Below the pieces are notes generated by a model that did not search any database, was not told the DNA's origin, and saw nothing but the letters and a program-made list of their open reading frames with translations. Source: Methanolobus sp. (GTDB lineage: Archaea; Halobacteriota; Methanosarcinia; Methanosarcinales; Methanosarcinaceae). From it: 43,038 nt of DNA. The DNA lies in the NCBI GenBank assembly GCA_021767785.1, contig JAASSR010000008.1, positions 1 to 43,038 on the forward strand, read 5' to 3'. Positions 6,510 to 43,038 of the stretch are shown piece by piece. The first letter of the stretch is position 1; each line of letters starts with the position of its first letter. The position numbers and the translations under genes are program-made.

Positions 6510-7955
6510 TTACTTTTCTTTTCTATGGAACATACAGGCAATGACAAACATTGCAACAAGTGTCAGAGCTTCAAATCCGGGAAGGCTGCCGGAAGTTTCT
6601 TCCTCAGCACCATCTGTCTGAGATTCACTCGTTTCCACGCTTTCATCATCGCTCTCTGACACAGTTTCTTCATCGATATCTGCTTCTGACACTACCTCAT
6701 CTTCCTTGATAACGATTGCAAACGGGGAGAATCCGGGTGTTGATGCAGTGAAGTAGAAGTACTCATCATCTTCATCTGTAACAGATGTATCAATCTCGTC
6801 CCATTGTTCTGTGTACCGCATAAGTCTTACATCAGCAGGATCCACACCATTTTCATTAATCCATGATTTTTCTATGGAAAATGAGATCTCAGGTTCGGAT
6901 ATTGTGTCAGAGCTTGCCCATCCGGTCTTTCCAACCCATATATTCATTTGCCTGTAGATCTTGCCTTCAGGTTCTTTATTTGCAAAACTGGATTTATCAT
7001 GCAATACTTCAATGGTCACGTCAGTATATCCTGCATTGACCTTTGGCATAAATGAAACTCCTTTAATAGGGTTTTCTGCCTCAGGGAATTCATACTCTGT
7101 TTTCACATCCTTCTGAACATAGACCTTTTTTACATCTTTGTAAGCGATATTCTCATAATCTTCGCCGGTGGCACCACCGCCACCACCACCGCCTCCACCA
7201 CTGCTTGATGTTGTAGTGGTTGTGCTGGAAGATGGTCCTGTAACAGAAGAGGTAGTTGTAACGCTACCTCCGGGTATTGTAGAGGTTACAGTAAGTGTAA
7301 AGGTGTTAGTTGCTGAAGGGCTGTCAGCACTAACGGTCCAGGAACCGGAACTTGATGCAGTAGGGGAAATAGTTCCAAGTGATGTCGGACTGCTTCCAGT
7401 GCTCAGGCTCCATCCGCTTGGAAGTGAAAGAGCCACTTTGACATTTGTAGCGTCGGCTGCTCCTTCTGAGGCACTGTTTGAGACAACATAACTGAGTACT
7501 ACATCATCTCCTGAACTTACAGAGGACACATCGGTACTGGAGTCGATTGTCAGAACCGGCCTGTCTTTTACTGTAATTGCGGAAGAGGATGTTTTTGCAG
7601 TACTGCTGTCATCATCGCCGGAAGCTGATATTGTAAATGGCGATGAGCTTGTGCCTGTGGACGTAGCTGTAACAGTCCAGGATACTGATTTTGTTCCGTC
7701 ACTTGTGAATTGCACCTGTTGCGTGGGACTTGGTATTGTGAACTGTTCTGAATTATCAGTCAGTGTCACATCTACTGTCAGTGTACCTGATACACTTGCA
7801 GCTGTAACAGTTGATGTTATGGTGATACTTTCATCCTTTACAACAGAGGTGTCGTAGTTAATACTACCTATGTTAAGAGACGCTGCAGCAGAAGCAGTCG
7901 GGATCATCCCGGCTGCTATCAACATGATAAATAAGACAATGGCTATCTTTTTCAC
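6510..7955 (-). CDS. PGF-pre-PGF domain surface protein with PGF-CTERM-like anchor
   Basis: This 481-residue exported protein starts with a signal peptide (hydrophobic segment ending near SASAA-like PTASAAA, residue 24). Next come Ser/Thr-rich Ig-like (CARDB-type) repeats to about residue 245, a nine-glycine linker, a PGF-pre-PGF-type domain (about 265-420, ending with PGFSPFAIV), an acidic Ser/Glu-rich stalk and a C-terminal LPGF + hydrophobic + RKEK tail. That tail is the PGF-CTERM signal processed by archaeosortase A, so the mature protein is probably lipid-anchored outside the cell. It starts at GTG, overlapping the stop of the upstream 2012-aa gene by 4 bp (GTGA), with an exceptionally strong ribosome-binding site inside that gene. 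The two proteins probably act together. Confidence 0.9.
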   Translation of the reverse strand: MKKIAIVLFIMLIAAGMIPTASAAASLNIGSINYDTSVVKDESITITSTVTAASVSGTLTVDVTLTDNSEQFTIPSPTQQVQFTSDGTKSVSWTVTATSTGTSSSPFTISASGDDDSSTAKTSSSAITVKDRPVLTIDSSTDVSSVSSGDDVVLSYVVSNSASEGAADATNVKVALSLPSGWSLSTGSSPTSLGTISPTASSSGSWTVSADSPSATNTFTLTVTSTIPGGSVTTTSSVTGPSSSTTTTTSSSGGGGGGGGGATGEDYENIAYKDVKKVYVQKDVKTEYEFPEAENPIKGVSFMPKVNAGYTDVTIEVLHDKSSFANKEPEGKIYRQMNIWVGKTGWASSDTISEPEISFSIEKSWINENGVDPADVRLMRYTEQWDEIDTSVTDEDDEYFYFTASTPGFSPFAIVIKEDEVVSEADIDEETVSESDDESVETSESQTDGAEEETSGSLPGFEALTLVAMFVIACMFHRKEK

Positions 7956-10900
7956 AGGTAGTCACCTCCTCCGCCTCCTTCAGCCATGGGGCCTTCTTCT
8001 TCATACATTCCCATCATATCCTGGTTCACCCTGAAGAAATTCATCTTCAATGTTTCTGTTTCACCTGAACCCTTCTCGATATCCACAATGGCTGTGAACT
8101 CGCCGAAGTCATAGTTTATTTCTCCCATTTCTTCCGGTAAGATCTCAAGTACACCTTCTCCATCGACAAGTGTGGCATTGATCATTTCAGAGCTCATGTC
8201 CCATGATACTGGCAGACCTTCAGCTGGTCCCTCTTCAAAGGTTCCTCCGAAGGTCATCTTCAATGACTTGAGTTCTGCAATACCGTCAACAGGTGTTCCG
8301 TCGAACTCCCGTGCAGTAATGTATATTGTGATGCTTTCATTGACATCGAAGTCATAAACAGGTGCAAATGATTTCAAGGTCGCAGAATTCTCACTTTCAT
8401 TTATGTTAAGACTTGGGAAAGCAAGAGGCCAGCTATCCATGTTACCGGTGCCGATATCCCATGCTTCTCCTTCAGACATATTCACTGTAACTATGGTATC
8501 TTCAAGGTAATCCGGTATTGAATCACCATATCCGCTTTCATTGGTGTACAGATCATAGATAGCATTTGTATCCATGTAATTCTCCCAGTCCCTTAACGTT
8601 GTGAGGTCCGCATCGTCATCATAGACTGCCTGGTTTGGCATATTCACCCCATTCGCGAGAGTGTCAGTGAGCAATATATGATAGCGTTCATCAGAACTTA
8701 TATTTCCTACTCCTTCAGGTAGTTCATCTTCATCATACATGTCACCACCTGCAGTTGCAAGGTCCAATCCCAGATCAGCATCACTGAACTTTCCTGTAAA
8801 GAATATCGGTTCATCTGAGGTCCATTCGGGAATCGGATATACCTGAGTTACGCTTCCATTGAGGAATATGAACCTTCCTCCCCATCTGGATACTGAAGCT
8901 GCATAGTAATTGTTGAACTCACTGATGTTCTCACCGATGCGATACGTATTTGCATCACTGGGATCACTTGAATTCACTACAAGTATGCAATCCTTTGTTT
9001 CAGGGGGCTGTTGAGGCATAAGATCATACATTGTACCAGCTGCATCTTCGTAGCCGAATACATAGTAATCCTGTCCGTTGAACTGTACCTCTGTAGCAGA
9101 TCCTGAATAAGTTGTCATCTCACCATTGGCTGTATTACTATCCATCAGCGAGTCGACAGCTTCCATTGATATAATTATCAATGGATATCTCAGGCTAAGT
9201 TCAACACTGTCGTTGTTGATGGCACTGACGTTGAAATCATATCCTCCCATCCAGTATTCTTCTCCGAGGGAGAAGGTCTGGGTTTCCGGACCAGAATTAC
9301 TGTCGTATCCTGCTATTGTCCAGGGCCATCCCTGATATGACATGGCTATCGTTGCTGATGTCCCCTCTGTGCAGCTTACAAGGGTAAAGTTCCAGAGGTC
9401 ACCATAGAAAGTTGTACTTTCACTATGGTTCAGAGTTATTGTGTCACCGGTGTTGTTCGCCTGGATGACTGTATAATCCATTGAAAGACCTGAACGGCTT
9501 GAGTTGATAGTTGCACCGACACCGATCTCTCCTGTTTCAAGGGTTGCTCCGTCTGTAGAATAATTGAAAGAACCGGTTGTACTGTTATAGTACCACTCAT
9601 CAAAAGGCCAGTTCATGTTGTACAGATCCTCTTGTGGTCCGAAGTTATATCCGGAGACACCTCTCTTGAACTCAACTTCATCACCGTATGCAAGGAGCAT
9701 GTTATTTCCTGGCATTCCGTCGCCTGCATTATCATCGCTCAATCTTATGAGATCGATATCTCCCGGTGTTCCAAGTGCTCCCGAGACTACGAAGTTACGT
9801 AGTTCGAAGCGATTGAGCTCCCAGAACATTTCCTCATTTGCAGCTGCATACTCGTCTCCGATGGTTACATTATAATGTATCATCCATGAACCGGTTGGTA
9901 TGGTAGTTTCTGAGGTGTTGATCTCGATGAGTGCCAGTCCGCTGGAAGTGGTGGTTGCATTGATATTCTCAAGGCTTTGAACATTTTTACTTTGATCTAT
10001 CAGGTAGTCAATTTTAACTTCCTTGTTTGCAAGAGGTTCTCCTCCCGGAGTTGTGACAAGGAATGGTATCTTGATCGTTGAACCATTCTGGAACGTTCCG
10101 ATATTCATTCCGTTCCAGCCTTCTTCATAGGTACTGAATTCCAGATTATAGGCTGAAGACAGGTATTTGTTGCTGAGCAGGTATATCGGATCGCCACCGA
10201 AATGGATAGGTTCTCCTGCGCTTGCATCAATGTATCCTGCGGAGAAGTTGTATGAGTTACTTATGAGCACTTTATCATACTGTCCTGCAGTAGTTGAATC
10301 TGCCATCAGTATAATATAATTATCCTCAAAGTACTCCCCATCTCCGTCAAGATCGATGTTCCTCCACTCTTCATCATAGAAGTTGCTTATGAGGAACTTT
10401 CCTGACTTACTCATTGCCATTATACTTTCATTCAGCAGAACACCGTTATTTAAGGTGTTCTGACCTTCAAGCTTAATGGTTCCATCGGATTTTATCTCCG
10501 TGATATTCCATGTCCTTCCTGTATAGTCTGTAAATGAGGATCCTTCAGATGCATTGAATACCTGTGTGGTAGTGCTGTTGGAAAGATTACCAACAGGTCC
10601 CTGTCCATCCTGGTCTTCATACTCAATATACACTGTATCATGTATGGTATCGATCACGGCCATTGCATAGCATGGTACGAACGTGTGGTTCCATGAATCA
10701 TCACCCATGATATCATAACTGCTTGAAATAGGTATGATATTATCTCCGCCAATTACCAATCCACTTATCTTTCCTGCACTCACATTACCAATACTTTCCA
10801 GCTGATTCTGTTTTGTGAGTATATCAGTAGTGGCATTGATGGATGTCGCATTTGTATAGTACTGTGCATCACTGACAGTTATTCTCATCGGATCTGTCAT

Positions 10901-13900
10901 GCTTACACTTGCAAGTTCAAGCCGGAACCAGAAATCAGTGTAAACTTCACTGCCTTCTTCGTCTGTGACCTTGAGTGTCATCATATAGGCCCCCTGTCCC
11001 CATCCGCTGGTGTTGATGGATACGTTTATCTCATTTGCACTATCTCCGGCTTCTGTGGTAGTGATTCCGGCCATCTGACTCTTTGTCTTGTAGCTGGTCA
11101 TCCACATGCCTTCCTGCATAACTTTTTCCACAGTCACATTTGTAATATTATGGGAACTGCTTCCCCACATTTTATCATCGGATGCTTCTACAGTGAAGTT
11201 GATGAAGCCGTTTGTCGGGAATTCATATTTCCATCCGGAGTCAACCCATGCAACAAAAGCTGTTGTATGCACCCATGCTCTGCCAACTTCAGTTGAGTTA
11301 CCATCTGTTGCTTCGAATACAAATTCGAAATTTCCACCCCTTGAAAGTCCCGGGTGTTCATAGAAACCTGATCCGTTGATGGTCCCGATCTCAACATCAG
11401 TGTCATTGTACATGGTCGGAGGTGTCATCATATCCCAGTCACCCATTGAAATGATCTTTGTCAGGGTAACGTTCACTTCCTTCTGGTCAAAGTTGCTGTC
11501 AAAAGCATTCAATGTGAAGTTTATAGGCTGGTCGATACCGACTTCCCATGAATTGGAATTCGGATAGAATATGAAGTTACTGACCTCGAACCATCCGTTT
11601 CCGTAATCAACTACTCCGTCCTGGGTTGTCATCTTTATCCTTACATTATAGAATCCGGACTTCAGACTGTTTTCAGGTGAGATCGATAGTGTGGCATCTC
11701 CGTTAGAGTCTGTTGTAACCGATGTTGACGAGTCTGTTACAGAGATCGTTTCCCCGGTCATTCCGAATTTCACATTTTCAACATCAATAGAAGCTGTGGA
11801 TACATTGTTTCCGCTTATATCCTCTACATGCACTGAAAGTTCAATGTTATCGTTGGAACCGAATACTTTGAACATGTTAGTATTGTCGTTGAAAACGGGT
11901 TTTGCTTTGATCCTGTAGAGTTTCTCATCGAACCAGGCATCGCCCATTACCATTTTCGGAGTTCCGTCAACAGTTGCATTTACCCAGAATTTAACATAAT
12001 GGAAACCGAGATATGAATCTGTAACATTGAATTTTAGCACTTTCCTGTCTCCAAGGAAAGGAACATTCACTGTTTCTATCACCGGATCTTCCATGTACTC
12101 GGTTACAACTTCCGAAGCACTGTCACTCCATACTTCAACGAGTCCTGCTTCATGGATGTCAGATGCAGGGATCTCAGATCCGGTTGACGGATCGAATGCG
12201 GTGATCATTATCCTTGCGGTGGCATTTGGAGCTACTGTGGGACTGAACCATCCCATTTTATTGACAGGTTCCCCGTGCACAAAGAGATCCTGTACGGTAA
12301 TACTCCTTCGTGCATTGTTCCATTGGGATATGTTAACTTTCACAAGAACATCATATACACCGTTATGGTCCGGAGCAGTGAAATTCATCACAGCAAAAGT
12401 GGTACCAGTAGTCTGTTCTACTTCATCCTGTATATCAGTTGGAACTTCCAGGTAATCGTAGAATGTGCTGGAGTTCATCAATGACCATGAAGATGTGACG
12501 TCGTTGCCCTCTCTGTCAGTGATGTTCAGGCTGAATTTTCCATTTTCAAGTCCTGTGGCTGATTCAAAATCAATGTTTTCTCCATTGCTTAGATTGGTTC
12601 CGGCAATAACAAGGAAACCTTCTTCGCCTGGAGCAAAACCATCGCTTTCACCGTCCTCCTTTGAAACGATTTTCAAAAAGATGTCATGTGATTTGATCTT
12701 GTAACTTGTATAAGCTTTCTGTGTCTGACTATTTGTGACAGCCTGATATTCCACATAATATGTATCTATTTCTTCATCATCCGGAATAGTATAATTTGCT
12801 GTGTAAGCGCCAATACTGCTGTCATAGTTAAGCTCAAGTTCGTTCAGGTATGATTCATTGTTCTCGCTTGTGACAGTAGCTGTTACTGAAGCATTTGTAA
12901 GTGGCTCTCCTGAACTGAGGTTATTAAGATATACTGCAGGGACCATTACCTCGCCAAGAGCAAAGGTGTGTTTCGGAGTATTTTCAGTTGATAGTATGTC
13001 TCCGAACATGTTCATGGTATTTACAACAAAAGAGATGTGCCCGATATCATCTGCAACAAGGTGATATGTTCCTGCATTATTTCCAATCTCTATTTCTGTT
13101 GTGTTGAGTCCCTGTGAACTGGTAATAAGTTCTGTTGAATTTATTTCAGCACCATTTTCACTCAGATAATCAAGAGTAATTGTGTCCTGCACAGGATATC
13201 CGCTGGAATTCAACGCCAGGATAGTTACATTTGCAGATTCTCCTCCATTGAATCTAGGGGATATAGTTTTTGCAAGTACTAAACTGGTTTCGTTGTTTAT
13301 ACTGACAAATTTGTAAGTAACTCCATTGAGCTTTATTTTCGATCCTTCTACGAGATTCCCTATAACACTCATGCCTGTGCTGTCAGATCCTGTCTGCATG
13401 TCAGAATCATCATCAACATATGCTACTTCTTCGTCAGATACAAGGAAATAATATGTAGTGCTTCCAAGAAGTACACTTCCACCGGATTTGCTTTCGTTCA
13501 GTGATCCATTGATGGCATGATTTTCCGAAAGTGGTACTGTGACAATATTTCCTTCAGTGAAGAGTACTTTAATTGTCTGTGCATCTTCCATGCCTACTAC
13601 ATTCATGTATAGATATGGTGAAATGACGCCGCTTTCAATATCTACTGCAACTATAGTGTAGTCCCCTGCATCTCCAGGAGCACTTATTGTTGTAGAAAAA
13701 ACCCCTTCTGAAGCTGTTATAGTTTTATTAGAGGTTTGGTTTCCAGGGCCGGTGAATTCATCTCCGGTGGGCCAGATTATTATTTTAACTTCTCCCGAAC
13801 TATTACCGTCCTGTATTTCGCCGGTTACACTTATCGTATCGCCGGATCCATATGTTCTTCCGTCAATGCTGAATTTCTGAATAGATGTTGCCGAAGCAAT

Positions 13901-13990
13901 AGGATTCATCAGCAACATTATTATTAGTACCAATAATACCAGAACCCCTCCTCTGGTATACTTTTTCAAATAATGTTTATTTTCATTCAT
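7952..13990 (-). CDS. Giant (2012-aa) multi-domain surface protein with Ig-like repeats
   Basis: This is a very large exported protein. A signal peptide or signal anchor is seen at residues 15-34 (VLVLLVLIIMLLMNPIASA). The rest reads as a chain of beta-sandwich, Ig-like/adhesin-type modules with many N-x-S/T sequons, suggesting heavy N-glycosylation. Calcium-type Asp-rich stretches occur (DLDGDGEYFEDN near 1200). The C-terminus is EGGGGGDYL with no membrane helix, PGF motif or sorting signal, so it is not anchored by itself. A ribosome-binding site (GGATGTGA) is 6 nt before the ATG, and a TATA-like box (TTTATATATAATC) lies about 70 nt further up. It is translationally coupled to the PGF-CTERM protein. 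I did not recognise a named family; S-layer-associated or adhesin function is an inference. Confidence 0.85.
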   Translation of the reverse strand: MNENKHYLKKYTRGGVLVLLVLIIMLLMNPIASATSIQKFSIDGRTYGSGDTISVTGEIQDGNSSGEVKIIIWPTGDEFTGPGNQTSNKTITASEGVFSTTISAPGDAGDYTIVAVDIESGVISPYLYMNVVGMEDAQTIKVLFTEGNIVTVPLSENHAINGSLNESKSGGSVLLGSTTYYFLVSDEEVAYVDDDSDMQTGSDSTGMSVIGNLVEGSKIKLNGVTYKFVSINNETSLVLAKTISPRFNGGESANVTILALNSSGYPVQDTITLDYLSENGAEINSTELITSSQGLNTTEIEIGNNAGTYHLVADDIGHISFVVNTMNMFGDILSTENTPKHTFALGEVMVPAVYLNNLSSGEPLTNASVTATVTSENNESYLNELELNYDSSIGAYTANYTIPDDEEIDTYYVEYQAVTNSQTQKAYTSYKIKSHDIFLKIVSKEDGESDGFAPGEEGFLVIAGTNLSNGENIDFESATGLENGKFSLNITDREGNDVTSSWSLMNSSTFYDYLEVPTDIQDEVEQTTGTTFAVMNFTAPDHNGVYDVLVKVNISQWNNARRSITVQDLFVHGEPVNKMGWFSPTVAPNATARIMITAFDPSTGSEIPASDIHEAGLVEVWSDSASEVVTEYMEDPVIETVNVPFLGDRKVLKFNVTDSYLGFHYVKFWVNATVDGTPKMVMGDAWFDEKLYRIKAKPVFNDNTNMFKVFGSNDNIELSVHVEDISGNNVSTASIDVENVKFGMTGETISVTDSSTSVTTDSNGDATLSISPENSLKSGFYNVRIKMTTQDGVVDYGNGWFEVSNFIFYPNSNSWEVGIDQPINFTLNAFDSNFDQKEVNVTLTKIISMGDWDMMTPPTMYNDTDVEIGTINGSGFYEHPGLSRGGNFEFVFEATDGNSTEVGRAWVHTTAFVAWVDSGWKYEFPTNGFINFTVEASDDKMWGSSSHNITNVTVEKVMQEGMWMTSYKTKSQMAGITTTEAGDSANEINVSINTSGWGQGAYMMTLKVTDEEGSEVYTDFWFRLELASVSMTDPMRITVSDAQYYTNATSINATTDILTKQNQLESIGNVSAGKISGLVIGGDNIIPISSSYDIMGDDSWNHTFVPCYAMAVIDTIHDTVYIEYEDQDGQGPVGNLSNSTTTQVFNASEGSSFTDYTGRTWNITEIKSDGTIKLEGQNTLNNGVLLNESIMAMSKSGKFLISNFYDEEWRNIDLDGDGEYFEDNYIILMADSTTAGQYDKVLISNSYNFSAGYIDASAGEPIHFGGDPIYLLSNKYLSSAYNLEFSTYEEGWNGMNIGTFQNGSTIKIPFLVTTPGGEPLANKEVKIDYLIDQSKNVQSLENINATTTSSGLALIEINTSETTIPTGSWMIHYNVTIGDEYAAANEEMFWELNRFELRNFVVSGALGTPGDIDLIRLSDDNAGDGMPGNNMLLAYGDEVEFKRGVSGYNFGPQEDLYNMNWPFDEWYYNSTTGSFNYSTDGATLETGEIGVGATINSSRSGLSMDYTVIQANNTGDTITLNHSESTTFYGDLWNFTLVSCTEGTSATIAMSYQGWPWTIAGYDSNSGPETQTFSLGEEYWMGGYDFNVSAINNDSVELSLRYPLIIISMEAVDSLMDSNTANGEMTTYSGSATEVQFNGQDYYVFGYEDAAGTMYDLMPQQPPETKDCILVVNSSDPSDANTYRIGENISEFNNYYAASVSRWGGRFIFLNGSVTQVYPIPEWTSDEPIFFTGKFSDADLGLDLATAGGDMYDEDELPEGVGNISSDERYHILLTDTLANGVNMPNQAVYDDDADLTTLRDWENYMDTNAIYDLYTNESGYGDSIPDYLEDTIVTVNMSEGEAWDIGTGNMDSWPLAFPSLNINESENSATLKSFAPVYDFDVNESITIYITAREFDGTPVDGIAELKSLKMTFGGTFEEGPAEGLPVSWDMSSEMINATLVDGEGVLEILPEEMGEINYDFGEFTAIVDIEKGSGETETLKMNFFRVNQDMMGMYEEEGPMAEGGGGGDYL

Positions 13991-34639: not shown

Positions 34640-37600
34640 TTGAATAGCCCGGGTACATTTAAAAAAAGTGTTGGTGGTAAATTGAGAATATATGTTGTTC
34701 TGATTATGTTACTCATCCTGTTCTGTCCTCTTGTATCTGCCGGACAGAATGCCAGGATAGAAATGCCTGATAATGTGGTGTCAGGTGAAATATTTCAGGT
34801 AAAACTGGTTATTGATGATCCCATGTTACGGGAACTTACACATAGGATCAGTGTGGGCACTCATGGAAATATCAATTTAAAAAGAACTGGTGAAACTTCC
34901 AGACCAAACGAATTTGAATATTCAGGTGAGGATGAGATAGTTTTTGATGCTGTGATGTTTTCAGGTTTCAGGGAAGGAGATGAGCAAGCAGCCGTATCAT
35001 TCCAGTTTTACGGCGATGTTGAAGAAATGAAAAGCAAATATCCAGATTGGGGTATGTATATGGGTACAGTCGGAACTGTCTCAAAGGAAGTTCATGCTTC
35101 ACCTGTAAGCTTTTATGCGGATCTTCCGGACCTTCCCGATGGAGAATTCAAGACCGAATACTGGGATAAAGTAACTTATACTCCCAGTTTCGGCTACGTG
35201 AGGTCGCCCGATGTAAATTCAATTTATGATCCTATGCAGCGCTACATGGGCTCTTTCAGCAGGGGAGTATGTTACGGTCCTACAAATGATGAATATGTAC
35301 TGTGCAGGTTCATACCAAAAGAATATCTTGATTATCCGGAAGAAGGTATGGAAGTATCTGAATATAATTATGGAAACTTTGGAAATAAAGGTCCTTCCAC
35401 AGGTTACTACATGCTCACCGTGGATAAGTCAAAACAAACGCGCTACGATGATAATGGAGAACCGTATGATGAGTATTCGCTTTCTTTAGGCTATACATAT
35501 GAAGTACTTGTCAAAGATTTTGTCCTGTATAATGGCTGGATCGCGAAAGATATTCAGGGTGTAAGAGATGTTGATTCTGCTGTAAGTGAATCTCTGGATG
35601 AGTTCCATGCAATAGCAGAAAGTCAGTATTATACACCTGTTGGTACTTCCAGTGGTTCATATCCTTCTGTTTTTGAAACAGAATTACCTCTTGAAGAAGG
35701 GCCTGATACTCTGTACATAAGCGGTTCGGTCAGCGATGCCGATGGGAACCCACTATCATATGCAAAGCTTGAAGCAAGGGTAAAAGGCGAGGTATTTGAA
35801 GGTATAGCAGATGAACATGGCGACTTTCATATTCCTGTTACAGTAGAACTTGATGATGATGAGAAGAATGTTAAAGTGGAATTCTTTGTTATTCTTTCCT
35901 ACGAAAGGGATGATACGAACTATTTTATACTTTATGATCTGGATGGAGATACTTATAAAAGAGTCTGGTATTATCAGGAACTGACTATCGTTGATCAGGG
36001 AAATGTCGAAGCCCATATCAGGCTGGATGGCTCTCAGGGAAGGGATAAAGCCAGCAGTACCGGTAACCCTGAGGATATGAAAAGTCTGGGTGTGATCTAT
36101 GCTCATACTGCCGAAGCAGTTGATTTCTGCCTGTATGACCTTGGAGCCAGCATAGATTACAAGCTCCCGGTAGAGGTGCTTGTAGGTAATAACAATGATG
36201 ATACCCTTTATTCTCCGGGAAAATCTGTAATCCTTATATCAAGCAATGATGCTGGTTATTCCAATTCGAACAGACCTAAGAACCGTGAATACCATGAGTT
36301 CGCCCATCATCTGATGTATGCTAACTATGGCGGATGGACACTCGGAGGTAAGGAATCAGGAACAATAAACCATGATGGTTTCCTTAATCCCAATACAGCC
36401 GATTCTTTTGATGAAGGCTTTGCTGAGTTCATTGCACTTGTTATCTCGGACAAGTTCGGCGATAGCAATCCGGCTGACGGAAAGACAAAGTCGGATATCT
36501 ATGCATCTTTCGGTAGCCTTGAGAACAATTATCATCCCTGGGACTCCAAGGGATATGATGAGGAATTTGCAGTTGCCTCTGTTCTGTGGGATATGTATGA
36601 TAAGAAAAACGACAATGGTGATACTCTTTCCATGTCCCTTTATGATATGTGGTCCGTGCTTAAGGTTCAGAGAACAGATTTCTATGATTATTATGTTGCT
36701 TTCAGGGAAGCAAATCCCAGCAAATCTGCGGAGATAGATAAAATATTCATTGAACACGGTTTCTTTGCTGATACCACAGAAGGTAACGGCAAGCGAGATT
36801 CATTTGAAGGCTTCAGAGATGAAAATAACAACGGAGAGTATGATTCAGGTGAGTTCTTCTTTGATCTGGGATGTCTGAATTCCACTTCAGAGATCGAATA
36901 TAAGAAAAGCATGGTTATCGGAAAAGCTGCTAACTATGAAAGAAGTAACAGGAGCACTGCCGTAAGGATAGATGGTGCTTACCTGAAAGTAGAAGATGAT
37001 GAGATACGTCAGTATCTTGTAAAAGTACATTATCCGGATTCAGTATATGGTGATGACTATGAATACGTAGTCGACCTGCGAGATGGCCTTTTATATGTTC
37101 AGCCTCTTCCATCAGACGTTCCGGCACAGATCAGTATTGAACCTTACTCTGTGGAATACACTGCTGAAAAAATCTATACTATCAGTAATGATGAGCTGAT
37201 AAATGAACTGGAAGAGCCTTCAGAGTATTTCGATGAACATGAGTTCTCACTGGAAAGTACAGGTGTTACCGGTGACATGGAATATGTTGTGTATAATGAT
37301 GTTGAACCGACATATGCATATGAAGGTGATCTTGGTCAGGAAGTAGATGTAAAGTTATCAGATGATGAACTTGATGCCGATGATGACAGGGGTCTGTCAG
37401 TACTATGGTTGATACCGTTGATCCTTATCGGCTTTGTGGCCGGTGCAGGTTTTCTGGTCATGAAAAAGTCAGGAAATCTGGCAAATTCAGTGGATCTGAC
37501 AAAAGCACAGGGTAAGGCGCAGGAACTTATCAAAAAAGGGTCTCAGGAATTCAATGATAAAGGAATACCTGCTATAAGAGAAGCCAGTAAAAAAGCTGCT

Positions 37601-37735
37601 GATTACACTGCCAGAGGTACGGAATTTGCTGCACAGCATACCAGGGAAGGATACAAAAAGGCCAAACCTCAGATCAATAAGGCCCGGGAGGATATTAAGA
37701 GGAAGATCAATGAAACAAAGGAAAAGAAGAAGTGA
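34640..37735 (+). CDS. Large membrane-anchored surface protein with HExxH zinc-peptidase motif
   Basis: This exported protein of up to 1031 residues has a signal peptide (VVLIMLLILFCPLVSA), an extracellular region with a carboxypeptidase-regulatory-like Ig module (near 358-400), and a zincin-type site: HEFAHH (552-557) with a downstream Glu in DEGFAEF (591-597), as in gluzincins. A single membrane helix (about 918-941) is followed by a Lys/Arg-rich cytoplasmic tail of about 90 residues with helical repeats. The start is uncertain: TTG at 34640 gives the longest frame but has no ribosome-binding site; TTG at 34682, after GGTGG, gives a normal signal peptide. Protease activity is inferred from the motif alone. 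It stands alone. Confidence 0.88.
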   Translation: MNSPGTFKKSVGGKLRIYVVLIMLLILFCPLVSAGQNARIEMPDNVVSGEIFQVKLVIDDPMLRELTHRISVGTHGNINLKRTGETSRPNEFEYSGEDEIVFDAVMFSGFREGDEQAAVSFQFYGDVEEMKSKYPDWGMYMGTVGTVSKEVHASPVSFYADLPDLPDGEFKTEYWDKVTYTPSFGYVRSPDVNSIYDPMQRYMGSFSRGVCYGPTNDEYVLCRFIPKEYLDYPEEGMEVSEYNYGNFGNKGPSTGYYMLTVDKSKQTRYDDNGEPYDEYSLSLGYTYEVLVKDFVLYNGWIAKDIQGVRDVDSAVSESLDEFHAIAESQYYTPVGTSSGSYPSVFETELPLEEGPDTLYISGSVSDADGNPLSYAKLEARVKGEVFEGIADEHGDFHIPVTVELDDDEKNVKVEFFVILSYERDDTNYFILYDLDGDTYKRVWYYQELTIVDQGNVEAHIRLDGSQGRDKASSTGNPEDMKSLGVIYAHTAEAVDFCLYDLGASIDYKLPVEVLVGNNNDDTLYSPGKSVILISSNDAGYSNSNRPKNREYHEFAHHLMYANYGGWTLGGKESGTINHDGFLNPNTADSFDEGFAEFIALVISDKFGDSNPADGKTKSDIYASFGSLENNYHPWDSKGYDEEFAVASVLWDMYDKKNDNGDTLSMSLYDMWSVLKVQRTDFYDYYVAFREANPSKSAEIDKIFIEHGFFADTTEGNGKRDSFEGFRDENNNGEYDSGEFFFDLGCLNSTSEIEYKKSMVIGKAANYERSNRSTAVRIDGAYLKVEDDEIRQYLVKVHYPDSVYGDDYEYVVDLRDGLLYVQPLPSDVPAQISIEPYSVEYTAEKIYTISNDELINELEEPSEYFDEHEFSLESTGVTGDMEYVVYNDVEPTYAYEGDLGQEVDVKLSDDELDADDDRGLSVLWLIPLILIGFVAGAGFLVMKKSGNLANSVDLTKAQGKAQELIKKGSQEFNDKGIPAIREASKKAADYTARGTEFAAQHTREGYKKAKPQINKAREDIKRKINETKEKKK

Positions 37736-37829
37736 TCCTTGTTCATCTTTTTCTTTTTTACCTTTACTCCGGAAATCTCAATTTTTCTCAAAACAAATCT
37801 AATATAGATTGTTCACTTTTCATATTATT

Positions 37830-38696
37830 GTGAATAAAGAACCTGTTTCCACTCTGGATCGAAAAATCAACAGTTTCCAGTCCCTACCAGTAATCGAAGG
37901 ATATTATCTGGTACTGGGTGGCGGGAAAATAGGAAGTGATTTTGCCAGCTATGCAAAAGAAAAGTCATTTCCTTTTGTAGTTATTATCGATGTTGATAAG
38001 TCAGCCAATGCCGCCGACAATTCAATAAAAGTAAATCGTGAAGAACTTTTCAGTCTAATAAAGGATTTCCAAAAATCAAAAGCCAATTCGGGTAATGTTT
38101 ATTTCCATTGCATGGATGTCCGCAATGTTCCTGAGATACTTGAGGCTGGAATCCCTGAGTTCATAATTCCTGCTGTACCCACACATGCTGTTGTTAATAT
38201 GGTAATTGATATGCTTAGTTCGGCATCTTCGGATCATTTGATCTCAGACATCCATATAGATGATAAGGATGAAGAAATGAAGGCATATTTTAACAAGCTC
38301 CTGTCTCATTTACCTGGAAATATCGTTGTTTTCAGTTCCCTGAAAGACGGTGTGATCATGTTCTCATACGCAAAGCCGGGGGAGATATGCCCTGATTACT
38401 GCATGGGCCCCAAAGATTATTGCTACAATTTCAAGAGGGAAAAGCCCGAGACCATAACTGCATATGTCAGGAAATTGTTACCATCTTACAAAGGCTGGGT
38501 TTTTGAAAGCTGCCAGATGAAACCGGGAATTGGCGGGATAAAGGGAGTTGATTTCAAGGAATATATGCTCTCTTTGATGGAGCATGTGAAACGTGTACAC
38601 GAAAAAAGGTATTCCTCTTCGGTTGAGGATCGCGCTTTTTTTATTGCAACAACGTGTAATTGTCATGGTATCATGAATTTGCTTGAAGTTGTATGA
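37830..38696 (+). CDS. Rossmann-like, cysteine-rich cytoplasmic protein, unknown function
   Basis: This protein of 288 residues has an NAD(P)-type Rossmann start (YYLVLGGGKIGSDFASYAKEK then VVIIDVD), as in TrkA-N domains, and a second half with clusters of cysteines: ICPDYCMGPKDYC near residues 190-203 and TTCNCHGIMN near the C-terminus, a possible metal or Fe-S site. The family is unfamiliar to me; it looks archaeal and single-copy. A TTG at 37809 also opens the frame, but GTG at 37830 lies about 26 nt after a TATA-like TAATATAG, fitting a leaderless mRNA. No ribosome-binding site is seen. It stands between the surface protease-like gene and a small membrane protein. Confidence 0.78.
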   Translation: MNKEPVSTLDRKINSFQSLPVIEGYYLVLGGGKIGSDFASYAKEKSFPFVVIIDVDKSANAADNSIKVNREELFSLIKDFQKSKANSGNVYFHCMDVRNVPEILEAGIPEFIIPAVPTHAVVNMVIDMLSSASSDHLISDIHIDDKDEEMKAYFNKLLSHLPGNIVVFSSLKDGVIMFSYAKPGEICPDYCMGPKDYCYNFKREKPETITAYVRKLLPSYKGWVFESCQMKPGIGGIKGVDFKEYMLSLMEHVKRVHEKRYSSSVEDRAFFIATTCNCHGIMNLLEVV

Positions 38697-40603: not shown

Positions 40604-41047
40604 ATGTCATCTGGTACAAACATGGACTTTGAGTATCTGGAACATACAGCCGATGCTAAATTCAGGGCATATGGTAAAAGTTTGAGTCAGGCTTTTGAAA
40701 ATGCTGCCCTTGCCATGCTCAATGTCATGGTTGATACTACGTCAGTGAATAACAGTTCATCTCTGGAAGTTGAACTTAGTTCTTCCGACCTTGAGGGTCT
40801 TCTATTTGACTGGCTCTCAGAGATCCTCTTTCTTTTTGAAGTTGAGGAAATGGTCTTTGGTGATGTGGAGATAAAAGAACTGGATATCAGCGATGAAGAA
40901 TGTTCTCTTTCTGCCACAATTTACGGAGAAAAGATTGATCATTCTTTACATGTATTTGATACTGAGGTCAAAGCAGCTACATATAATGATATGAGGATCG
41001 AAAAAATCGATAGCCTATGGATGGTCCAGGCAACAGTTGACACATAA
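40604..41047 (+). CDS. Archease (RtcB activator)
   Basis: This 147-residue protein is archease, which activates the RNA ligase RtcB by promoting GTP-dependent guanylylation and turnover. The hallmark N-terminus is MDFEYLEHTADAKFRAYG (residues 7-24), with the acidic core EGLLFDWLSEILFLFEVEEMVF and C-terminal EVKAATYNDMRIEK. The ATG at 40622 is also possible as start. It precedes rtcB on the same strand by 150 bp, the classic pairing. Confidence 0.93.
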   Translation: MSSGTNMDFEYLEHTADAKFRAYGKSLSQAFENAALAMLNVMVDTTSVNNSSSLEVELSSSDLEGLLFDWLSEILFLFEVEEMVFGDVEIKELDISDEECSLSATIYGEKIDHSLHVFDTEVKAATYNDMRIEKIDSLWMVQATVDT

Positions 41048-41200
41048 GATCTTTTAAGTCTACTTCTAACGTCTTTATCACTTTAAATTTCTCATTTTTA
41101 CTGATCCCTGGGGCATTTTCATGTTATCAATATATTCATACGATTAGAGCACATAGTTCACATTATAGATAATTGACAGAAATAAATTGACAGGAGAATA

Positions 41201-42670
41201 ATGATGTCAGAGAAAAATGAAACATCAGTTCATGATATTCTTACAAAGATCAATGATAACATATGGGAGGTACCGGAAAATTTCAAACCCGGAATGAATG
41301 TACCCGGCAGGATATTCGTTTCAAAACCACTTCTTGACCTCCTTGAAAGTGAAACGATAGATCAGGTTGCAAATGTAGCTTCTCTTCCAGGCATACAAAA
41401 ATATTCCATGGCGATGCCTGATGCACATCTGGGTTATGGTTTCTCTATCGGTGGAGTTGCTGCATTTGACAAAGACGAAGGTGTGATAAGTCCTGGTGGA
41501 GTTGGTTTTGATATCAATTGCGGAGTACGTCTCATACGCTCAAATCTCAGCGAGGAAGATGTTCGTCCGAAACTCCCTGAACTGCTTGACTCTTTATTTG
41601 ATGCAATACCTTCCGGTGTTGGTTCCAAGAGTCGTCTGAGGGTCAATGATAAAGAACTTGATGACATCTTTATGCACGGAGTACGCTGGGCTGTAAGAAA
41701 CGGATACGGCGTTGAAAAGGACCTGAGTCACTGTGAAAGCAATGGGATGATGCCAGGAGCGGATCCTTCTATGGTAAGTGTAAAAGCAAGAAAAAGGGGC
41801 AGACCACAGATAGGAACTCTGGGAAGCGGAAACCATTTTCTCGAAGTCCAGTACGTAGACAAGGTGTATGATAAGGAAGCAGCCGAAGCTTTCGGTCTTA
41901 AGGAAGGTCAGATAACTTTTATGATCCACTGTGGTTCCCGTGGAGCAGGTCATCAGATATGTACCGATCATCTCCAGAAGCTCACACAGGCTTCAAAGAA
42001 ATACAAGATTCCTCTTCCGGACAAACAGCTTGCATGTGCTCCTGCAGGTTCTGATGAAGCACAGAACTATTTCAAGGCAATGGTCTGTGCGGCAAATTAT
42101 GCATGGGTGAACCGCCAGGTAATAATGCACTGGGCAAGGGAGGTTTTTGAGAGTTTCTTCAGATCCGAACACGGTGATCTTGGCCTTGATCTGGTCTATG
42201 ATGTTGCTCACAATGTTGCCAAACTTGAGAGACATATCATTGCCGGTGAGGAAAAGGAAGTCTATGTTCACAGAAAAGGTGCAACAAGAGCTTTCCCTGC
42301 AGGTCATCCTGAGATCCCGCAAGACTATTCTGACGTAGGACAACCGGTGATAATTCCCGGAAGTATGGGCACTGCCTCCTATGTTCTTAAAGGAGGCCCT
42401 GCTGCACTGGAACTCACATTCGGAAGTGCCTGTCATGGTGCAGGAAGAGTAATGAGCCGCAGGAGTGCAAAGCGTGAACTTCGGGGTGAAAAGGTACAGA
42501 GCAAGCTGAGATCAGAAGGTATTATTGTCCGTGCCACCCAGCCTTCATTGATAGCGGAAGAGGCACCTGAGGTCTATAAATCCAGTAGTGAGGTCGTAGA
42601 TGTGGTGCATAATCTCGGAATAGCCACAAAAGTTGCGCGTGTATTGCCAATGGGAGTTGTCAAAGGTTAA
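41201..42670 (+). CDS. rtcB: tRNA-splicing ligase RtcB
   Basis: This 489-residue RNA ligase joins 2',3'-cyclic phosphate (or 3'-phosphate) ends to 5'-OH ends in tRNA splicing and RNA repair, with GTP and Mn2+. Conserved motifs are [17 protein letters not shown] near 75-90, [13 protein letters not shown] near 100 (metal Cys), [11 protein letters not shown] near 205, [10 protein letters not shown] near 245 and the guanylylated-His region [10 protein letters not shown]...[11 protein letters not shown] near 390-425. No intein interrupts it, although RtcB inteins occur in other archaea. ATG at 41201 and 41204 are both possible; AGGAG is 4 and 7 nt from them, so the second fits spacing better. It pairs with archease. 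Confidence 0.96.
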
Positions 42671-43038
42671 GTTTTACCTTAACTCCTTATTACTTCATAC
42701 AGTTATATTTAGCCATTATTGATTCAGAATTCAAATGAAGAACAAAGTTATCAATGATGATCATACACTGGTAAAATCGTCTGTTTGAATGTGTTTGAGA
42801 ACCAGAGGGATAGTGAAAAGAATTTTTGCTATGTAATTGAGCAACGAGGAAACGGGGACATGTTTGAGGGGATGAATGGTTTTGCTTGGTTACAGTTACT
42901 ATACCTTTGAATACAGTTACAAGCAGTTTGTTCCCGTTTCCTCAACTTATAATTAGTCATTATTATATATAAATCTGTTTGACATTCTTTATATATCATT
43001 TCCTTTAAACGCTTTAAATAATATTGGATATACTTTAA
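42671..43038. other. 368-bp non-coding region with repeats and inverted repeat (origin-like or structured)
   Basis: No gene longer than about 16 codons. It holds: four TGTTTGA copies on the plus strand (42782, 42792, 42861, 42976), the first two 10 bp apart; the inverted repeat GAGGAAACGGGGACA (42846-42860) / TGTTCCCGTTTCCTC (42929-42943), 15 bp with one G-U pair; two TACAGTTAC repeats (42891-42899, 42912-42920), 21 bp apart, inside the inverted repeat; and an AT-rich tail after 42950 with TATATATAAA- and TTTATATATC-type boxes. The arms contain GGAAACGGGG, resembling archaeal origin-recognition boxes. Interpretation open; see findings. Confidence 0.45.
42846..42943. repeat. 98-bp inverted-repeat element
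   Basis: Arms of 15 nt (42846-42860 and 42929-42943) can pair along their whole length with one G-U wobble, enclosing a 68-bp segment with two 9-bp direct repeats. No flanking target-site duplication was noticed by eye. Confidence 0.6.

Follow-up and report, generated by a model that had tools for sequence, protein, structure and literature searches.

The targets of few trans-acting small RNAs (sRNAs) of archaea are known, and the archaeal examples cited below each come from work on a single species. In staphylococci, RNAIII and RsaE use an exposed C-rich loop to pair with G-rich, Shine-Dalgarno-like loops in the leaders of their target mRNAs. Among the archaeal examples, Methanosarcina mazei sRNA162, which is 191 nt long and encoded at the MM2441/MM2442 locus, targets an ArsR regulator within a bicistronic mRNA and also acts in cis (PMC3510493). 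The same species has a trans-acting sRNA154, for which conservation in Methanosarcina and a link to nitrogen limitation have been reported; it has an anti-RBS loop, counts a regulator mRNA among its targets and stabilises some of them. A third sRNA, sRNA41, masks the ribosome-binding sites of polycistronic ACDS mRNAs by complementary sequence (both PMC5867862). In Methanolobus psychrophilus, dRNA-seq has yielded 195 intergenic transcription start sites (PMC5378194).

The locus presented here lies at the end of a contig (C43) in a Methanolobus draft genome of 2.33 Mb; the window, meaning the whole stretch of DNA that was analysed (43,038 nucleotides), is this entire contig and ends at 43038. 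The region that follows rtcB (41201-42670, plus strand; PF01139, E 4.7e-181) is likely to be the minus-strand gene of an independently transcribed, trans-acting sRNA with the leader of a regulator mRNA as its target, as judged from sequence comparison. Like sRNA162 (PMC3510493), it is intergenic, belongs to Methanosarcinaceae and has an unstructured segment complementary to the mRNA of a transcription regulator; in the case of sRNA162, such pairing masks translation initiation. With sRNA154 it has in common, comparing the two by description only, that it would act in trans on a regulator mRNA, and with sRNA41, again by description only, that it is complementary to a ribosome-binding region, although the target differs. 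The bacterial RNAIII and RsaE resemble it in mode alone. From sRNA162 it differs in its rtcB/PUA locus, in its predicted target by pan/uvrB, in having two leader hairpins as the predicted site and in giving no match in Methanosarcina-like genomes; because locus and target differ and the Methanosarcina-like genus g7 has no match, we do not place it in the sRNA162 family.

A block at 42816-42998 is conserved in all 26 genomes of the same genus, mostly with 89-97% identity, and is found 3' of rtcB where this can be read; the source genome holds no second copy of it. A covariance model built from 25 sequences matched 65 of the 112 Methanosarcinaceae genomes, spread over 8 genera, exactly once each; it had no match in the order's 74 remaining genomes and none in genus g7. 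Among 84,980 species, the exact core pattern occurred at 39 loci, all labelled Methanosarcinaceae (Methanolobus, Methanococcoides, Methanohalophilus, Methanosalsum, Methanomethylovorans, Methanohalobium, other Methanosarcinaceae and ANME-3), and it gave no match in viral contigs. Wherever the contig was long enough for the flanks to be read, the element converged with rtcB on one side and diverged from a gene with TGT_C2/PUA domains on the other. Immediately 5' of rtcB in the window is an archease gene, the two forming an RNA-ligase pair (40604-42670).

The earlier note had proposed, as one possibility, a structured RNA based on a 15-nt inverted repeat. The repeat (42846-42860 and 42929-42943, complementary at 14 of 15 positions) and the RNA reading both stand, with the transcript placed on the minus strand by the position of the promoter, the wobble asymmetry and a downstream T-rich tract. 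On both strands, the repeat with its loop folds better than 200 of 200 shuffles (z -3.4 for plus, -4.1 for minus). The core of the gene is 98 nt long (42846-42943, minus strand, the RNA running from the 42943 side) and matches the covariance model with 118 bits. Its TATA box TTTATATA (42966-42973, minus strand) corresponds to TTTAAATA in relatives, and in 37 of 39 genomes this box A, TTTAWATA, is found at a constant distance from the stem; the remaining 2 have the variant CCTTAAATA. Upstream is the BRE region TCAAACAGA (42974-42982, minus strand), in which YCRAACA is conserved. The centre of an archaeal TATA box normally lies near -26, and this spacing together with the box A distance puts the transcription start at about the first base of the stem. 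At the other end, the T-rich tract TTCTTTTC (42815-42822, minus strand) is a probable terminator, judging from the T-rich tracts 3' of the stem in most relatives. The whole transcript is therefore predicted to be about 128 nt long (42816-42944, minus strand), the 5' end being placed by the TATA spacing and the 3' end by the T-rich tract and the conserved block.

In the RNA, the basal stem P1 joins GAGGAAACGGGAACA (5' arm, 42929-42943) to TGTCCCCGTTTCCTC (3' arm, 42846-42860), and the inner stem P2 joins TGCTTG (42920-42925) to CAAGCA (42883-42888), all on the minus strand. Relatives show paired changes in P1: over 44 distinct sequences, both sides have changed in 5 of the 11 modelled pairs and 98% of cells are paired. 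For the consensus structure as a whole, 98.6% of cells are paired and 6 pairs have changed on both sides, which 0 of 500 shuffles reached; the alignment behind these figures was fitted to the model, and the unfitted alignment agrees in picture. In minus-strand stems, G-U outnumbers A-C, the mismatch that would read as G-U on the plus strand, by 16 to 5 in one count and 17 to 7 in another, an excess expected if the minus strand is the RNA. Between the stems lies the unpaired anti-target core AAACCATTCATCCCCTCA (42865-42882, minus strand), the reverse complement of hairpins in the regulator leader. Its invariant part, CCAUUCAUCCCCUC (CCATTCATCCCCTC), is unchanged in 43 of the 44 distinct sequences, and the mean predicted unpaired probability is 0.95 for AUCCCCUC versus 0.49 for the whole RNA. 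The locus has its own intergenic promoter and a conserved non-coding structure, as in archaeal intergenic trans-acting sRNAs. A plus-strand peptide was considered and rejected, its frame being broken in relatives (for example at L009). Rfam searches with the region, at gathering and at lax thresholds, gave no credible match; the sRNA would be a family not yet described there and would give Rfam a new one. It may also be among the 195 intergenic start sites of M. psychrophilus, in which case the transcript has already been seen, and the target and the conservation are what is new.

When the reverse complement of the sRNA core was searched for in Methanolobus, allowing at most one mismatch per site, all 23 genomes searched had a tandem pair of near-complementary sites at one other locus, and the reversed control pattern had 0 hits in the same search. 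In the source genome the pair lies at 2208-2258 of contig C118, before a gene whose start codon is at 2280, and tandem sites precede the same gene in seven other genera too. Other near-matches were sporadic or inside coding sequence and were set aside. A distance of 31-38 nt separates the two leader sites. From the end of the last one to the AUG there are usually 19-25 nt, and in nearly all genomes this interval holds a GAGG Shine-Dalgarno sequence. Each leader hairpin is built of a short outer stem, inner UCU/GGA pairs and a GAGG loop, and the outer stems covary (AUCCAU/AUGGAU; AUCCGU/ACGGAU in G097; AAAUCCCC/GGGGAUUU in G130).

The longest uninterrupted pairing between sRNA and leader, G-U allowed, is 12-21 nt (median 15), versus about 9 for shuffled leaders; these figures leave out G083, whose row is an artefact, and the lower end is set by G130, with only 12 nt. 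Duplex energies were of little help, as whole molecules were joined in the calculation. Site 1 of the Methanolobus leaders usually contains a C-A mismatch and site 2 is free of mismatches; likewise, in G091-G095 site 1 carries a mismatch and site 2 pairs without one. The reverse is found in G030 and G129, where site 2 is weakened and site 1 intact, and in G030 and G083 the motif is lost from the second hairpin with the first intact. By this pattern, the two predicted sites back each other up. The sole altered sRNA core, CCGUUC in G097, matches an altered site 2 (GAACGG), and site 1 of that genome still pairs by G-U. One leader position departs from complementarity: the C that precedes UGAGGGG is conserved, yet it does not pair with the A opposite it in the sRNA. 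A protein or the ribosome may constrain the leader hairpins, which have structure of their own in their inner UCU/GGA pairs and covarying outer stems, and this would explain the conserved non-pairing C.

The gene behind this leader codes for a protein of 200-380 aa. Its N-terminus is conserved (MKVRLEIIDDDG), its middle part is Q-rich, and it ends in a winged helix with a weak Pfam match to Penicillinase_R. Only the two end domains are well defined in its AlphaFold model, and a structure search returned a generic winged helix only. By sequence recognition we take its neighbours to be pan, which is divergent and codes for the proteasome-activating ATPase, and uvrB, which lies downstream. This Q-rich winged-helix regulator is lineage-specific and is absent from the Methanosarcina-like genomes searched. 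Across the 112 genomes of the family, RNA and protein occur together in 63 and are both missing from 45, with RNA only in 2 and protein only in 2; the four discordant genomes are drafts of 60-83% completeness, and the two with protein only (G060 and G061) still have two sites in the leader. Because the pattern follows genus boundaries, and so the phylogeny, these counts represent few independent events. The sRNA points, in methylotrophic methanogens and ANME-3, to an unstudied regulator encoded beside a proteasome ATPase gene.

We propose that the sRNA folds on its conserved basal stem and so would expose the invariant C-rich segment, which would then pair with one or both of the G-rich leader hairpins over the loop and the 3' arm (U-GAGGGGAUGAAUGG). 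As the second hairpin is just upstream of the Shine-Dalgarno GAGG, such a duplex would end beside the ribosome-loading site, and it would remove two Shine-Dalgarno-like GAGG loops, with less translation of the regulator as the expected result. From the complementarity and its conservation we infer that this pairing occurs in the cell, and probably the sRNA controls the winged-helix regulator gene. As for the direction of control, lower translation is the most likely outcome because the duplex adjoins the Shine-Dalgarno sequence and takes away the two loops, but its chances are perhaps even; the main alternative, by analogy with some targets of sRNA154, is that the regulator mRNA would be protected from decay. 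More tentatively, and with a little less than an even chance, the leader, with two tandem GAGG-loop hairpins at fixed spacing before the start codon that the one C-rich segment would read, may be a two-site sensor of sRNA dose, so that the sRNA and a single dedicated regulator mRNA would form a module shared by eight genera including ANME-3. As the sRNA and its predicted target site are conserved at the family level, they lend themselves directly to compensatory-mutation and deletion tests.

A different set of partners for a real sRNA is the alternative that survives best, although we regard it as unlikely: the RNA would be a general anti-Shine-Dalgarno element acting on ftsZ and other mRNAs, or would act through a bound protein, with the regulator leader one of many partners. 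The start of ftsZ has GAGGGGATGAA in every sRNA carrier where it was read, and some genomes have other hairpins with the same C-rich core in the loop. However, a Methanosarcina-like genome that lacks the sRNA has an ftsZ Shine-Dalgarno sequence of this type as well, with the Shine-Dalgarno-like GAGGGGAU preceding the gene, and the longer match, with AUGG and often UUU beyond the Shine-Dalgarno-like part, is found in tandem and in eight genera at the regulator leader only. Part of the match between sRNA and leader could reflect this shared Shine-Dalgarno type. As a dedicated target ftsZ was rejected, since it has GAGGGGAT even where the sRNA is absent. In the ftsZ starts collected (L175-L201), GAGGGGATGAA stands before GTG or TTG in carriers, and L199, from a genome without the sRNA, is of the same type; the ftsZ Shine-Dalgarno region is probably an ancestral trait and not a site of sRNA action.

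Considerably less probable is that the GAGGGGAU hairpins are a protein-binding motif, CsrA-like or autoregulatory, for which the locus would supply a plus-strand decoy with the same motif. The covarying stems and conserved GAGG loop of the leader hairpins would suit such a protein, and the plus strand of the locus does carry TTGAGGGGATGAATGG, but this copy is without the flanking CCAU/AUGG hairpin of the leader, the conserved promoter faces the opposite way, and the wobble counts favour the minus strand.

The earlier note had put forward a chromosomal replication origin or Orc1/Cdc6-binding region, which we now consider highly improbable. Archaeal origins are marked by repeats of the ORB or mini-ORB type, as a rule close to cdc6. 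The note's sequence features are real: the arms contain GGAAACGGGG, the tail is 82% AT from 42950 to 43038, cdc6 is 18 kb away, TACAGTTAC occurs at 42891 and 42912, 21 bp apart, and TGTTTGA occurs four times (42782, 42792, 42861 and 42976). The helical-turn spacings that it had taken as a sign of protein binding are present too but are weak evidence, because shuffles of the region give similar repeats (46% hold some 9-mer twice and 2.8% some 7-mer four times). They have a place in the RNA gene: both TACAGTTAC copies fall within the apical portion of the hairpin, one TGTTTGA coincides with the BRE region and one with the RNA loop, and the other two are in non-conserved DNA. Against an origin, no further ORB-like GGAAAC...GGGG sites were found in the window or by cdc6, the arms have diverged through paired changes of the RNA type, G-U among them, there is a single conserved hairpin in fixed rtcB/PUA synteny, and the GC-skew shows no local reversal up to the contig end. 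The likelihood of a MITE or other mobile repeat, which the 98-bp length and terminal inverted repeat had suggested, is negligible, because the genome searches found one copy per genome rather than dispersed repeats, with the same neighbours in all genera and no viral-contig match.

Elsewhere in the window, adjacent ORFs of 1031 aa (34640-37735) and 295 aa (37809-38696) have no Pfam match at E 0.001, and a minus-strand ORF of 2012 aa spans 7952-13990. In several relatives, further intergenic hairpins with unrelated stems carry the loop core CATTCATCCCCTCA, at L155 (G031), L159 (G097), L164 and L165 (G030 and G083) and L166 (G130). Most are followed by a T-rich tract, and they may be second sRNAs, or else hairpins of 3'-UTRs that share the seed.
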